Assembly (NCBI GenBank): GCA_015233155.1
Contig: JADFYG010000010.1
Location: 1-64,000 of the forward strand
Direction of reading: 5' to 3'
DNA length: 64,000 bases
Source: Candidatus Rifleibacteriota bacterium
GTDB lineage: Bacteria > Muiribacteriota > Ozemobacteria > Ozemobacterales > Ozemobacteraceae
Shown here: positions 19,859-30,389 of the stretch, piece by piece
Numbering within the stretch: the stretch's first letter is position 1
Layout: every line of letters begins with the position of its first letter
Translations under genes and position numbers: made by a program
The notes under the pieces: generated by a model
What the model saw: the letters and a program-made list of their open reading frames with translations, nothing else
What the model was told of the DNA's origin: nothing
Databases searched by the model: none

Positions 19859-19980
19859 GCGCTTGCCTCCAAGTCTCTGATGCCTGTGGTCGGTTAACCT
19901 GATTCATGATAGCATAACAATATAATAGTTCGCCCGAAATGGGCGTGTGTCAGAACGGTGAAGGAAAGGACGGTTCCATA

Positions 19981-21336
19981 ATGAATTACTGTAGAATCAT
20001 TCGGACAGGTTGTTGTGCTTTACTATTGACCATCATGCCTTTTGTAAGCCAGGTTAATGCAGCAACGCGGGCTGAAGCCACATCAATCAGACTTATCGAC
20101 AATAACCATGTCCCGAAAAAGATCGTTGTTGTCATGACTTCAGGTACCACTTCGTTCGTCAAAAATCTCTTTACGATCATTAAACAAATTAATGTTGAAG
20201 AAAACCTGTCATCCGCGAATCGTCTGAAACTGCATATCATCCCCTCCGGTGGGAATCCGATTTCCAGCCTTGGAATATCCGCGGAAGACGCTGATAAATA
20301 TGTTGAAGTGAATCCGAAATACTCTTCAGATGACATATGGGCACAAGATTGCATGGAGCTCTGCGCCGCCCGCACCTCAGGAAGCGACACACTTGTTCCC
20401 GCCGTCTTCGACACAAATCGCGGGCGCGGTCTTGCCGGTCTTCCTCGTGCCCTGGCTGATCTCTGGGGATTAGTTTACGCTTTGAATCCCTCTGACGCGG
20501 AAGCCCACGGTGACTACGGCGGAAATATCGAAGTGACGCCTTTCGACAATGTCATGGTTTCAGGTAATACGATCACTCCGGAATGCAAGAGTTTTTTCGA
20601 AAAAATGGGATACGCGGGACGCATGTTCAATCCGGATACTTCGTGGCTGACGGTAGGACACATCGATGAGAGCATGAGTTTCATTCCAACCTCGCATGTA
20701 TCCGGTGGATACAGCATAGTAAAAGCCGATCCGGCATATGCCCTGGATCTTGTAGAGGCCGCAACCGACGCGGATTTCGCGAATCTCGGCAACGACGCCG
20801 CTTTCCTGAAGCGCGTGAAGGCGGTTCTTTCCGCTCAGCGTGATAATCCCGAGGCATCTACAGGCACCCCGGAAGACGATTTCATCAAAATGAATCGAAA
20901 GATCGGCGAAATAGTCGAAAAGAATGCCGGAGACTTGAAAAACTTCATCCGAAAAGTAACCAATGATGAAAATCGTGAATTCGGGGAAGTGTCCTGGCCA
21001 GCCCTGTATGAAGGCCGCAATGGCCCCAGACCATCGGGATGCTGTGCTTTTCTTCCCGGCGTCGTGAATTTGACAGTCCTTGGAACCCATCTTCTGGTTC
21101 CGGCCTGCCATTTTCCTCCATTCGACCGTATCATCGAAGCCAGGTTTCGCGCTCAGGGCAACAAAATCCATTTCATCGACGATTCCGCATATCATACGAG
21201 CATGGGAGAGATCCACTGCGGAACAAACGTTCTTCGGGATCTTGAGCACACCGTCGTCACCCCTGCACGCATCCAGGCGATTCAGCGTGTAAAAGAGCGG
21301 TTCGAGAGCCTCCACACCACCCCGAATCTTCGATAA
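19981..21336 (+). CDS. Exported peptidylarginine deiminase, eukaryotic PAD-type catalytic domain
   Basis: 451 residues, converting protein arginine to citrulline if active. ATG 19981 follows GGAAAGGA, and a signal peptide (about 1-28, ending VNAA) predicts export. All four catalytic residues of the animal PAD family can be placed: Asp123 in WAQDCMEL, His227 and Asp229 in VGHIDESMSFIP, and Cys413 in GEIHCGTNVLR. GDYGGNIEV matches the family's GDFGNLEV-like stretch. The N-terminal Ig-like domains of animal PADs are missing and calcium-site residues were not checked. This family differs from the bacterial PPAD of Porphyromonas. The gene stands alone. Substrates are unknown; secreted or surface proteins are likely. 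Confidence 0.88.
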   Translation: MNYCRIIRTGCCALLLTIMPFVSQVNAATRAEATSIRLIDNNHVPKKIVVVMTSGTTSFVKNLFTIIKQINVEENLSSANRLKLHIIPSGGNPISSLGISAEDADKYVEVNPKYSSDDIWAQDCMELCAARTSGSDTLVPAVFDTNRGRGLAGLPRALADLWGLVYALNPSDAEAHGDYGGNIEVTPFDNVMVSGNTITPECKSFFEKMGYAGRMFNPDTSWLTVGHIDESMSFIPTSHVSGGYSIVKADPAYALDLVEAATDADFANLGNDAAFLKRVKAVLSAQRDNPEASTGTPEDDFIKMNRKIGEIVEKNAGDLKNFIRKVTNDENREFGEVSWPALYEGRNGPRPSGCCAFLPGVVNLTVLGTHLLVPACHFPPFDRIIEARFRAQGNKIHFIDDSAYHTSMGEIHCGTNVLRDLEHTVVTPARIQAIQRVKERFESLHTTPNLR

Positions 21337-21999: not shown

Positions 22000-23001
22000 A
22001 TGTTGGATATCTCTAGGATTACCATATGCGCAGCTATATTCTTGGCAGTCCTTTCTATTCAGGCTTTTTCAGCTGATAAAATCTACCTTGGCGTATTCGA
22101 TAATGATAAAAATAAAAATCTTGACGATTTATCAGGTGTCGAAACATTTGAAAGGGATGCTGGTAAAAGGGTAGCGATAATTCATGTGTTTCAAGCTTGG
22201 GGAGCAAATCACGGCAAGAATCAATTCAATGTCACTGCGATGAATGCTATTCGCTCACATGGATCTATACCACTTTTAACCTGGGCACCACGTGCTCTTC
22301 ATGAGAAAGAGAATGAACCTGAATATGCATTGAAAAATATAATTGATGGAAAATATGATGGTTACATCATCAAATATGCTTCTGCTATAAAGGCATGGAA
22401 ACATCCGCTGTTTTTGAGATTCGCTCATGAAATGAACGGCAACTGGTATCCATGGGCAGAAGGGGTTAATGGAAATGTATCTACTGAATATGTCAAGGCA
22501 TGGCATCATGTTCATGATCTATTCAAGCGCAATCAAGTAACAAACGTTACTTGGGTGTGGTGTCCTAGTCGAAAAAATAGCAAGCATAAAAAATTGAGTG
22601 AGCTATATCCCGGCGATGATTACGTTGATTGGCTGGGTATTGATGGATACAATGATACAAGATTCAAGGGATGGCAGTCGTTTGAAGAAGTTTTTGGTGA
22701 TGCTTATCATGAAATGGTGAGATTGTCAGGAAAACCGATCATGATAGCTGAGTTTTCCTCAATGGAAGCGGGCGGAAAAAAATCTGTCTGGATTTCAAAG
22801 ACTCTAAGCTCGACAATAACAGCAAAATTTCCTAGGATAAAGGCTGTTGTCTGGCTAAATCACCAATTCAGCAGTGAGCTGGATTGGAGGATTGAATCAT
22901 CCGTATCTTCGCAGAGAGCTTTTGCAGAAGCAGTTGCATCACCATTGTATTGCGATAATAAATATGCTTTCCTAGATGTATCTCCGATTTCAGCACCCTA
23001 G
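22000..23001 (+). CDS. Exported GH26-like glycoside hydrolase
   Basis: 333 residues. ATG 22000 has GGAGG upstream; signal peptide about 1-24. The fold motifs match family GH26 (beta-mannanase, lichenase and related): acid/base Glu144 in RFAHEMNGNWYPW, WVWCPS, DWLGIDGYN, and nucleophile Glu251 in IMIAEFSS. It would cut beta-1,4- or mixed-linked polysaccharide outside the cell or in the periplasm; the substrate cannot be assigned. Coding sequence is clearly richer in A and T than its neighbours (many AAA, AAT, ATA, TAT codons), a sign of recent acquisition. It is a single-gene unit. Confidence 0.85.
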   Translation: MLDISRITICAAIFLAVLSIQAFSADKIYLGVFDNDKNKNLDDLSGVETFERDAGKRVAIIHVFQAWGANHGKNQFNVTAMNAIRSHGSIPLLTWAPRALHEKENEPEYALKNIIDGKYDGYIIKYASAIKAWKHPLFLRFAHEMNGNWYPWAEGVNGNVSTEYVKAWHHVHDLFKRNQVTNVTWVWCPSRKNSKHKKLSELYPGDDYVDWLGIDGYNDTRFKGWQSFEEVFGDAYHEMVRLSGKPIMIAEFSSMEAGGKKSVWISKTLSSTITAKFPRIKAVVWLNHQFSSELDWRIESSVSSQRAFAEAVASPLYCDNKYAFLDVSPISAP

Positions 23002-27413: not shown

Positions 27414-30389
27414 TTAAGGAAGTGAATATCCGACTATTTTTCCTGAAGAATCCTTTTCGACCTGGTAATAGATTGGCTCTTTGGTTGAATCCAGTTGGAA
27501 CGTCACGTCCTTATCTTTCTCAACCGAAACAATATTGCTGAATTCTCCGCTTGTACTAACCTGGGAAGCCGGATCAATAACAAAAGGGCGCCCTGCCTGT
27601 TGCTGATCACCCATTAGAAAAAAGCAATAACAATAGGGGTCTTTCTGGCCCTTCAAAGGCAAATTAAGCGAATACTTCCCGGTTTGATCGGGGGTCATAT
27701 CATATTTGTTCCATACGTTCCCAATCATTATGCAGAGTCGAACTCCCTTAACAGGTTGCAACAAAATATCTACCGTTTTGTCTTTTCCATCTGTATTAAC
27801 CAGATCCACAAAGCCAAGACAGTAGCCAGGTTTAGAAACAACGACTTTGTATGTTCCAAGGCGAACTGATTTAAAGGAAAAGCTTCCATCCTGGGCGGCA
27901 GAACAATCGCCAAAAGAGTAGTATTCCCGGCCGTCTTTTTCGAACAAAATTACTTTCGCGCCCACGATATCGGGATTTTTTCCTGATACGGCGCATAATG
28001 GATAAAGCGTCACGTCATACCTTTGCCGATATTCCTGATCTCTCATTGAAAAATAATAGTACTTAAATTCAGGACTATATCCTGCCTTTGTAATCTGAAT
28101 TGTAAAATCTTCTTTTGGAAGATCGTTTAAACAGTAGCACCCGGATGCATCAGGTGCCGCCTCAATAAATTTCTCCATGCTGGATTTTCCATTTACTGTT
28201 ACTCGTTTGTAGCCTCGAACAAATGTTCCTGAGAGATCTCCATTATAGGCAACCTTGATTTGTCCCTGGATACAACACTCATTTTTCAAATCAACATTTT
28301 CCTGAACTGTTTTCTGATCAGTTATAGTGAGGGTTTCCTTCGCTGACGAATATCCCTGAGCCTGAACCTCCAGAACATGCTTTCCAAAAGAGACTTTTTC
28401 AATAACGCATGGGGTTTCACCCTTGGGAATGCTGTCAAGCAATACTGTAGCGCCGGAAGGATTGGACGTGACCTTTATACAACCCAGTGCCTTGGAAGGA
28501 GTTTGAGTCTGTGTGTTTTGAACACCTGTAATATTCTTCTGGAGACTGATAATTTTCGTAAAAATCCTTGCCTGGATTCCATCCTTGTCCTGAAGTTGAG
28601 CCAGATTAAAACGCATCTTGTCAGAAACGGCCTTTAAGACAAACTGGAACTGAGCTATCGCGGAAGGATTTTCCTTCAATTGCCCCTCGAGAACCGAAAG
28701 GCCTTCTTCAATATCGCCGAATTTCCCGGAATCGACCAGGCTTACAAAAAACTTCCTGATCTCCTTTTGCCGTCTTTCCATGGATGTCTGCAGAAAGTTA
28801 TAGTCCCGCGTAAGTTTCTCGAAAACAGGACCATCGCGGCTGGTCTTTGGAAGATATACTTCAAGGTCCCGGAGAGCCTGATCCAGGAAGACGAGTTCCG
28901 CAATTTTATCCTGAACAACGCTTTTACTTCCCTTTATTGGCAGTTGAATAAAGCCCTTGTTATCTGAAACATCGGAAACATATAATCCGGGAGCTGCGTC
29001 AAATGGAATTTCGACTTCTTTTGGAACAAGATTTTTGGCGGAAATAGTAAGTTGAAGCTTATTTTCCTCTTTAAACCGCAAACAGGCTAGAGCACCAATG
29101 ACTGGGGCTCCGTTTGCGGAAATATTCAAGGTAAGTCGTGAATTTTGGGGGTCAGGCTTTGTTGTTACTAGCAGTTCCTGAGGTTCGTCGGTCCAGACTG
29201 GCATTTCCGGGTCACCAAGAAGATTCATTCCAAAAACGAGCCATCGATACTGTCCATCAGTGGCCATGGCTTCGGGAACATATTTTGCGCGAGCCCTGGC
29301 AACGGCCTCGCCGATATGGTTGGAAATGTTTTTCGGATCGTTTAAAAGAAGGTCATAAAAATCCTTGATCATCAGGATGGTGTAATAATGGCCTTCGTTC
29401 TGTACTTGGTACCATCCCTCGCGACTGCATGCCCAATATGCGACAGCCCCCCCCTTGGGATTGTTCATGAAATGTTCTGAAAGGGAATCCTTGTCAAAAT
29501 AATTTGTGAGACAGGAAATCGATGTGTAAATGAAGGGAAAGGAGTTGGACAAAGCATCCGCATCTTCACTCTTAAAAAGTCCATTGGCTGCAAACAAATT
29601 CACGTTTCCGTGAGCCCCGACATATACAAAATGCGGGTTAAACGTTGAAAAGCCATTCTTGATCTGATCAGGATTGGCTCCCTGGGAGTCATAAAACCGC
29701 TGTATCTGATAATCCTTGAAAAAGGCCCCGGCCAGTTGTTCGGCGTCGTGTTCTCCGGGAGTTTGTTCGTCGTGGTCCATGCCGACAAGCAGAGCGCGCT
29801 TTACCCAATTTTTCGGAGGGGACTTTTCGTAATTCAGAACCTTCTGGACAAATGTTGAAGCGTCTTCCCGCGAATCAACTGAGGCCCGTCCGATAAAGAC
29901 TTCGGGGATCAGATCGCAATTATCCTTTGGCTCTCCGTAAATTCCGTTATTATTGCCATCCCAGGTTCCATCGAGATTCGCGTAATACAGATCGGAAGGG
30001 ATATCGGTTCCGCCTCTTATTCCTGATCTTGCGTATCGAACAGGAATTAAGGCGCCTTCCTTATCTTCGGTATCACCACCCAGCAAAACCCACTTCACGT
30101 TCCAGGTCTTTTTGGCATCTTTAATGAATTCTCTTATTTGAACGGGTACATCTTTCCCCTGATAGTTTTTCAGTACCCACTCAAGCGAAATGACTCTTGT
30201 TGGAACTCCTTTTGCTGTTTTCCAGTCGGCAAGCTGCTGAAAAATTGAAGCATAGCGCAGGGGAGTGATAATAACGTATTCAACGGCATTTCCAAGTGTC
30301 AGGCAAGCTGAGGTTGCGTCCTTTGCCTCAATCCGGAAAGCCCAGCCAATGGTCAATATTGAAAAAACGAGAATAAATATTTTTTTCAT
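27414..30389 (-). CDS. Exported C25 (gingipain-type) cysteine peptidase with PEGA and Ig-like domains
   Basis: 991 residues. Signal peptide about 1-22. The N-terminal 430 residues are a caspase-like peptidase C25: catalytic His260 in FVYVGAHGN and Cys293 in TSISCLTNYF, plus LLGGDTED and LIPEVFIGRAS. A coiled linker (about 500-650) follows. A PEGA domain comes next (GCIKVTSNPSGATVLLDSIP, about 637-700), then carboxypeptidase-regulatory-like beta domains (YCLNDLPKEDFTIQITKAGY). No type IX secretion C-terminal domain is evident, so the export route beyond the inner membrane is unclear. It stands alone on the minus strand. Substrate specificity (Arg or Lys in gingipains) cannot be read from sequence. 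Confidence 0.88.
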   Translation of the reverse strand: MKKIFILVFSILTIGWAFRIEAKDATSACLTLGNAVEYVIITPLRYASIFQQLADWKTAKGVPTRVISLEWVLKNYQGKDVPVQIREFIKDAKKTWNVKWVLLGGDTEDKEGALIPVRYARSGIRGGTDIPSDLYYANLDGTWDGNNNGIYGEPKDNCDLIPEVFIGRASVDSREDASTFVQKVLNYEKSPPKNWVKRALLVGMDHDEQTPGEHDAEQLAGAFFKDYQIQRFYDSQGANPDQIKNGFSTFNPHFVYVGAHGNVNLFAANGLFKSEDADALSNSFPFIYTSISCLTNYFDKDSLSEHFMNNPKGGAVAYWACSREGWYQVQNEGHYYTILMIKDFYDLLLNDPKNISNHIGEAVARARAKYVPEAMATDGQYRWLVFGMNLLGDPEMPVWTDEPQELLVTTKPDPQNSRLTLNISANGAPVIGALACLRFKEENKLQLTISAKNLVPKEVEIPFDAAPGLYVSDVSDNKGFIQLPIKGSKSVVQDKIAELVFLDQALRDLEVYLPKTSRDGPVFEKLTRDYNFLQTSMERRQKEIRKFFVSLVDSGKFGDIEEGLSVLEGQLKENPSAIAQFQFVLKAVSDKMRFNLAQLQDKDGIQARIFTKIISLQKNITGVQNTQTQTPSKALGCIKVTSNPSGATVLLDSIPKGETPCVIEKVSFGKHVLEVQAQGYSSAKETLTITDQKTVQENVDLKNECCIQGQIKVAYNGDLSGTFVRGYKRVTVNGKSSMEKFIEAAPDASGCYCLNDLPKEDFTIQITKAGYSPEFKYYYFSMRDQEYRQRYDVTLYPLCAVSGKNPDIVGAKVILFEKDGREYYSFGDCSAAQDGSFSFKSVRLGTYKVVVSKPGYCLGFVDLVNTDGKDKTVDILLQPVKGVRLCIMIGNVWNKYDMTPDQTGKYSLNLPLKGQKDPYCYCFFLMGDQQQAGRPFVIDPASQVSTSGEFSNIVSVEKDKDVTFQLDSTKEPIYYQVEKDSSGKIVGYSLP

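Follow-up and report, generated by a model that had tools for sequence, protein, structure and literature searches.

A one-domain, predicted exported protein-arginine deiminase in Candidatus Riflebacteria

The window analysed here, a stretch of 64,000 nucleotides in all, belongs to an uncultured bacterium, as an initial sequence-only reading had supposed, and more precisely to Ca. Riflebacteria. On its forward strand, positions 19981–21336 form a complete open reading frame for a protein of 451 aa, with an ATG at 19981 and a stop codon at 21334–21336; an in-frame alternative ATG at 19939, 42 bases upstream, is a possible start, and a start near 19981 matches that of most relatives. In a Pfam search, the protein matched PF03068 (Protein-arginine deiminase, PAD_C) over profile positions 47–387 of 395 with 94.5 bits (E 8.8e-27; curated cut-off, 25 bits), bearing out the family membership proposed in that reading, and it matched no other Pfam family and no model in NCBIfam or PHROGs. 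A phmmer search against the PDB recovered human PAD1-4 (E 6e-15 to 1e-9), with identity to characterised PADs of only about 20–30%, and identity to a cyanobacterial PAD was 28%. A viral or mobile origin of the gene was considered and rejected, as viral contigs contained no confirmed relative and phages and PHROGs none, and so was a plasmid origin, with just two Streptomyces matches of ~30% identity among plasmids. Contamination of the bin was likewise dismissed, because the nearest relatives are all from Riflebacteria (Candidatus Riflebacteria/Ozemobacteraceae; best, 67%) and the codon-position GC resembles that of most neighbouring genes.

The N-terminus of the protein, MNYCRIIRTGCCALLLTIMPFVSQVNA followed by alanine, has the appearance of a signal peptide when inspected by eye, with a short arginine-bearing start, a hydrophobic run and a putative cleavage site near VNA-A, placing the signal peptide at residues 1 to ~27 (19981–20061, forward strand). 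Comparable starts were found in most of the one-domain relatives by a simple rule-based scan. The catalytic domain follows almost directly, with ~5 residues in between and the first strand beginning at residue 33 of an AlphaFold2 model. The predicted export signal and the absence of the animal N-terminal (Ig-like/cupredoxin) domain thus agree with what had been read from the sequence, and the middle domain is missing as well: neither PAD_N nor PAD_M was detected by Pfam in the 451-aa protein, and the model leaves no room for either. Consistently, the distance from the tryptophan of the catalytic motif to the start is ~114–137 aa in nearly all members from Riflebacteria, whereas it mostly exceeds 200 in multi-domain PADs. 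As controls, PAD_M was recovered in a cyanobacterial PAD (8e-45) and in that of Vibrio (4e-17); in the Nocardia and Polyangia PADs, PAD_C alone was detected, with ~200–230 residues ahead of it. Two further loci have long upstream stretches. In a 1450-residue open frame from Holophagales (L080), more than 1000 residues precede a C-terminal PAD catalytic domain with divergent Ca2 positions. On a 3116-base contig (L034/L022), the open PAD frame extends 222 residues beyond the conserved start on its upstream side, but this extension is probably artefactual, caused by frame or high GC, and not an extra domain.

The AlphaFold2 model, built from a 59-sequence alignment, has a mean pLDDT of 93.4 and a pTM of 0.89, with low confidence confined to residues 1–28, which include the putative signal peptide, and to the C-terminal tip. 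All of the best 50 Foldseek matches in the PDB are human PADs, led by PAD4 (E 5.9e-23, probability 1.00) and followed by PAD1 and PAD3; with a probability of 1.00 to PAD1-4, the structural check suggested in the sequence-only reading returned a PAD fold. The superposition has an rmsd of ~5 A over 435 columns, a value probably explained by long indels together with the domains that PAD4 has in addition. Judging from fold, residue order and conservation, the four catalytic residues would share one cleft.

To place these residues, the letters of human PAD2, taken from its PDB match to a cyanobacterial PAD, were aligned with 64 homologues. Asp123 (20347–20349, within WAQDCME), His227 and Asp229 (20659–20667, His227-Ile-Asp229) and Cys413 (21217–21219, within GEIHCGTN), all encoded on the forward strand, align with D351, H471, D473 and C647 of PAD2 (D351 being D350 of PAD4), in the motifs originally singled out. 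This tetrad is invariant in 30 relatives from the phylum, which are 29–62% identical to the window protein, and in all 54 rows of the widest tree. The same 30 relatives also share W120, Q122, E126, D144, R147, N182 and E184 without exception and R149 nearly so. Arg147 and Arg149 lie in the segment Asp144-Gly150 (DTNRGRG; 20410–20430, forward strand) and match R372 and R374 of PAD4, which bind the substrate backbone. PAD chemistry proceeds through an S-alkylthiouronium intermediate on the cysteine, with the guanidinium group held by two aspartates and the histidine acting as both acid and base. By analogy, Asp123 and Asp229 would hold a peptidyl-arginine and Cys413 would attack its guanidinium carbon, His227 would protonate the leaving ammonia and activate water to yield citrulline, and Arg147 and Arg149 would grip the substrate backbone, so that arginine within a polypeptide would be favoured over free arginine.

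The calcium sites are conserved to different degrees. The Ca1 side-chain ligand set is retained as Q122/E126/E184, with Gln122 (20344–20346, forward strand) equivalent to Q350 of PAD2. Of the Ca2 ligands, the aspartate remains, but Cys124 (20350–20352, forward strand) replaces a glutamate (PAD2 E352, PAD4 E351), a position held in relatives by Cys, Trp, Ile, Met or Phe, and Gly148 replaces PAD2 D/N374 (PAD4 N373). The calcium-switch aspartate (PAD2 D389) is not conserved, in a column aligned less surely, and the domain that bears Ca3–Ca6 is missing. The description of the site as a complete animal-type active site therefore applies to the catalytic residues: the tetrad and the Ca1 positions stand, whereas side-chain ligands of Ca2 have been replaced and the best trees place the protein apart from cyanobacterial and animal PADs. 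The calcium relay of vertebrate PAD2 starts in the middle domain and leads into the catalytic domain (PMC8826395, in the part drawn on here, citing Slade et al. 2015). In the window protein, Ca1 is probably kept as one structural calcium site. Since both the Ca2 site and the PAD_M relay are absent, one would expect an enzyme that is either constitutively competent or dependent on a single calcium outside the cytoplasm, where calcium is not limiting. A further variation at Ca1 was seen in one-domain PADs of the Oligoflexia bin G040 and of G105 (L058 4992–6356, L061, L064, L123, L132 and L133), in which the Gln and Glu equivalent to PAD2 Q350 and E354 are replaced by Arg and Lys, giving the motif W-x-R-D-x-x-K with an intact catalytic tetrad.

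Collectively, these features make it quite probable that the gene product is a protein-arginine deiminase, secreted or periplasmic, that has been reduced to its catalytic domain, operates under reduced calcium control and belongs to a one-domain clade typical of Riflebacteria. Export, deimination of arginine in polypeptides and a weak or single-site need for calcium are all predictions from sequence, and the targets might be the envelope or secreted proteins of the bacterium itself or the proteins of its neighbours. An exported deiminase acting on free arginine, agmatine-like compounds or short peptides, serving arginine scavenging and not protein modification, is an unlikely alternative with some points in its favour: secreted peptidases such as those of family C25 would yield arginine peptides, and distant Bdellovibrionota (the order of G040) lose the equivalent of R147, which contacts the peptide backbone, so that specificity can drift. 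Nevertheless, the invariance of R147 and near-invariance of R149 in the 30 relatives aligned and the PAD-type active-site sequence argue for peptidyl-arginine. Furthermore, the protein matched neither the ADI nor the PAD_porph/agmatine deiminase models of Pfam, and neither ADI (PF02274) nor PAD_porph (PF04371) was found in its own genome (84% complete), so that nothing seen there hints at an arginine deiminase pathway and, with it, at a role in free-arginine use.

Loss of the Ca2 site could also be taken as the mark of an inactive, PAD-fold binding protein, and inactive PAD homologues are on record, with human PAD6 so labelled in PDB entries. We regard such a role as very improbable, as selection for binding alone would not keep the tetrad strictly invariant across members as divergent as these. 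A further alternative draws on the surroundings of the gene: a gingipain-family C25 peptidase with PEGA and CarboxypepD_reg domains is encoded ~6 kb away in the same window (27414–30389, reverse strand). Arg-gingipains and PPAD work one after the other in Porphyromonas (PMC6147916, in the part drawn on here), and one could imagine a PPAD-like pairing in which the C25 enzyme exposes C-terminal arginines for citrullination by the window PAD. This pairing appears highly unlikely: the two genes lie on opposite strands with others between them, the usual targets of PADs with this fold are internal arginines and C25 occurs in 39 of the 40 sampled genomes of the phylum, including PAD-free ones, making its co-occurrence with PAD uninformative.

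The wider neighbourhood speaks to inheritance and not to substrate. In many Ozemobacteraceae relatives (e.g., L037), PAD sits in a block with ABC transporter genes, an EamA transporter, sigma-70, 3-hydroxyacyl-CoA dehydrogenase (3HCDH), acetate kinase and an FGE-domain protein, a stable synteny that suggests long vertical inheritance. The window PAD is instead flanked by TPR/TerB-like and PepSY protein genes; the sigma-70 orthologue of its genome lies ~80 kb off on the same contig (C11:101626–103095) and the FGE orthologue on another (C174), indicating that the PAD gene or the block has been rearranged. None of the conserved neighbours reveals a substrate, those of the relatives being housekeeping genes (sigma-70, 3HCDH and acetate kinase). 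An FGE-domain gene is found near PAD in about a dozen relatives, and a partnership with this FGE-sulfatase protein was considered and rejected: since sigma-70, 3HCDH and acetate kinase also lie near PAD, the proximity of FGE is that of a syntenic block. The FGE gene of the window itself is just 25–30% identical to the syntenic orthologue.

In maximum likelihood trees of the catalytic domain, the window gene falls into a clade of predicted exported PADs that lack both N-terminal domains, a clade shared with some Bdellovibrionota. The split between one-domain and multi-domain PADs received support of 100/99 in a tree of 77 rows and 100/100 in one of 60 rows from which the longest branches had been removed. 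When further Bdellovibrionota were added, the multi-domain PADs again formed one group (100/100) and the clade of Riflebacteria was recovered at 96/87, with some rows of Bdellovibrionota standing apart. Human PAD2, the sole animal row in trees without fungal PADs, groups with cyanobacteria at 99/93 in the 77-row tree, in agreement with Cummings et al. The sequence-only reading had called for a tree with cyanobacterial and animal PADs; the best of such trees separate the protein from the cyanobacterial and human enzymes, although a forced grouping of the one-domain PADs with the latter, against the other multi-domain PADs, was not rejected by the AU test (p = 0.117). That test result and the shared catalytic residues could be read in favour of a gene gained recently by horizontal transfer from an animal or a cyanobacterium, yet the exclusively riflebacterial nearest relatives, the low identity to the cyanobacterial PAD, the age of the clade with its strongly supported split, and the synteny common to the Ozemobacteraceae copies make such a source very improbable. 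The one-domain clade is old.

Its distribution is also broader than had been thought. The location had been called rare, a view we revise: of 40 genomes sampled from the phylum, 26 carry PF03068, some of them in several copies and none in more than three when split hits are counted as one gene, and the synteny is conserved in relatives. By comparison, 19 of 292 cyanobacteria and 34 of 129 genomes of the order of G040 carry the family. The accompanying claim that PAD_C is mostly animal and cyanobacterial does not hold either, as the part of Cummings et al. 2021 (PMC8826395) drawn on here records PADs in 136 actinobacterial, 69 proteobacterial and 177 fungal species. Loci from twelve other genomes of the G040 order have open frames of 437–572 aa, and the catalytic motif, readable in 11 of these 12, lies ~129–186 aa into the open frame. 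The Oligoflexia bin G040 itself contains ~seven PAD loci, one of them broken by two in-frame stops, in what looks like a burst of paralogues.

Two PAD architectures, a three-domain and a two-domain one, are described in the portions of Cummings et al. 2021 (PMC8826395) and PMC9174705 used here, which call the function of PADs in bacteria completely unknown. With the three-domain enzymes of animals and late cyanobacteria (PADI1-4, cyanoPADI), the window protein shares the PAD_C fold, the Asp-His-Asp-Cys tetrad, the Q/E/E ligands of Ca1 and the R372 equivalent; unlike them, it lacks PAD_N, PAD_M, Ca3–Ca6 and the Ca2 ligands, has a predicted signal peptide and falls into a separate clade in the best trees. 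Like the two-domain PADs of fungi and actinobacteria, as these are described in the same portion of PMC8826395, it combines PAD_C with the lack of PAD_N and with unconserved Ca2 ligands and calcium-switch Asp, but the two-domain PADs keep ~170–200 residues of divergent PAD_M before PAD_C, and the window protein belongs to a separate clade. Some two-domain PADs are likewise exported or lipoproteins (Nocardia L091). Finally, the protein resembles Porphyromonas PPAD (PF04371, agmatine deiminase-like) in being a bacterial enzyme predicted to be exported and to make peptidyl-citrulline. PPAD and PAD_C enzymes are members of the same guanidino-modifying superfamily. They nevertheless fall into different Pfam families, and PF04371 was unmatched in the window protein, which accordingly is not of the PPAD family, as had been stated from the outset.

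This comparison points to a third kind of PAD, with a single domain, alongside the two already described. In the open literature covered by our searches (subscription journals lying outside that scope), including the portions used of PMC8826395 and PMC9174705, we found no description of a one-domain exported type, and the branch thus seems undescribed there. More tentatively, and with somewhat more doubt than conviction, we propose that a third, one-domain exported type, centred on Riflebacteria and part of the Bdellovibrionota, has shed the calcium relay; that in the G040/G105 sublineage the built-in positive charge of Arg and Lys may replace calcium, permitting calcium-independent extracellular citrullination; and that ancestral PADs may have resembled the one-domain form closely. 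A phylum in which most sampled species carry predicted exported, catalytic-domain-only PADs widens the range of settings in which protein citrullination may occur. Such minimal enzymes also offer a means of asking how much of the calcium control of PADs resides in the catalytic domain, and their sequences provide new material for rooting the PAD tree on which the claim of a cyanobacteria-to-animal transfer is based.

As a minor observation on the same window, positions 22000–23001 (forward strand) encode a GH26-family, mannanase-like exported protein, whose third-position GC of 0.33, against 0.44–0.61 in neighbouring genes, suggests a recent arrival.
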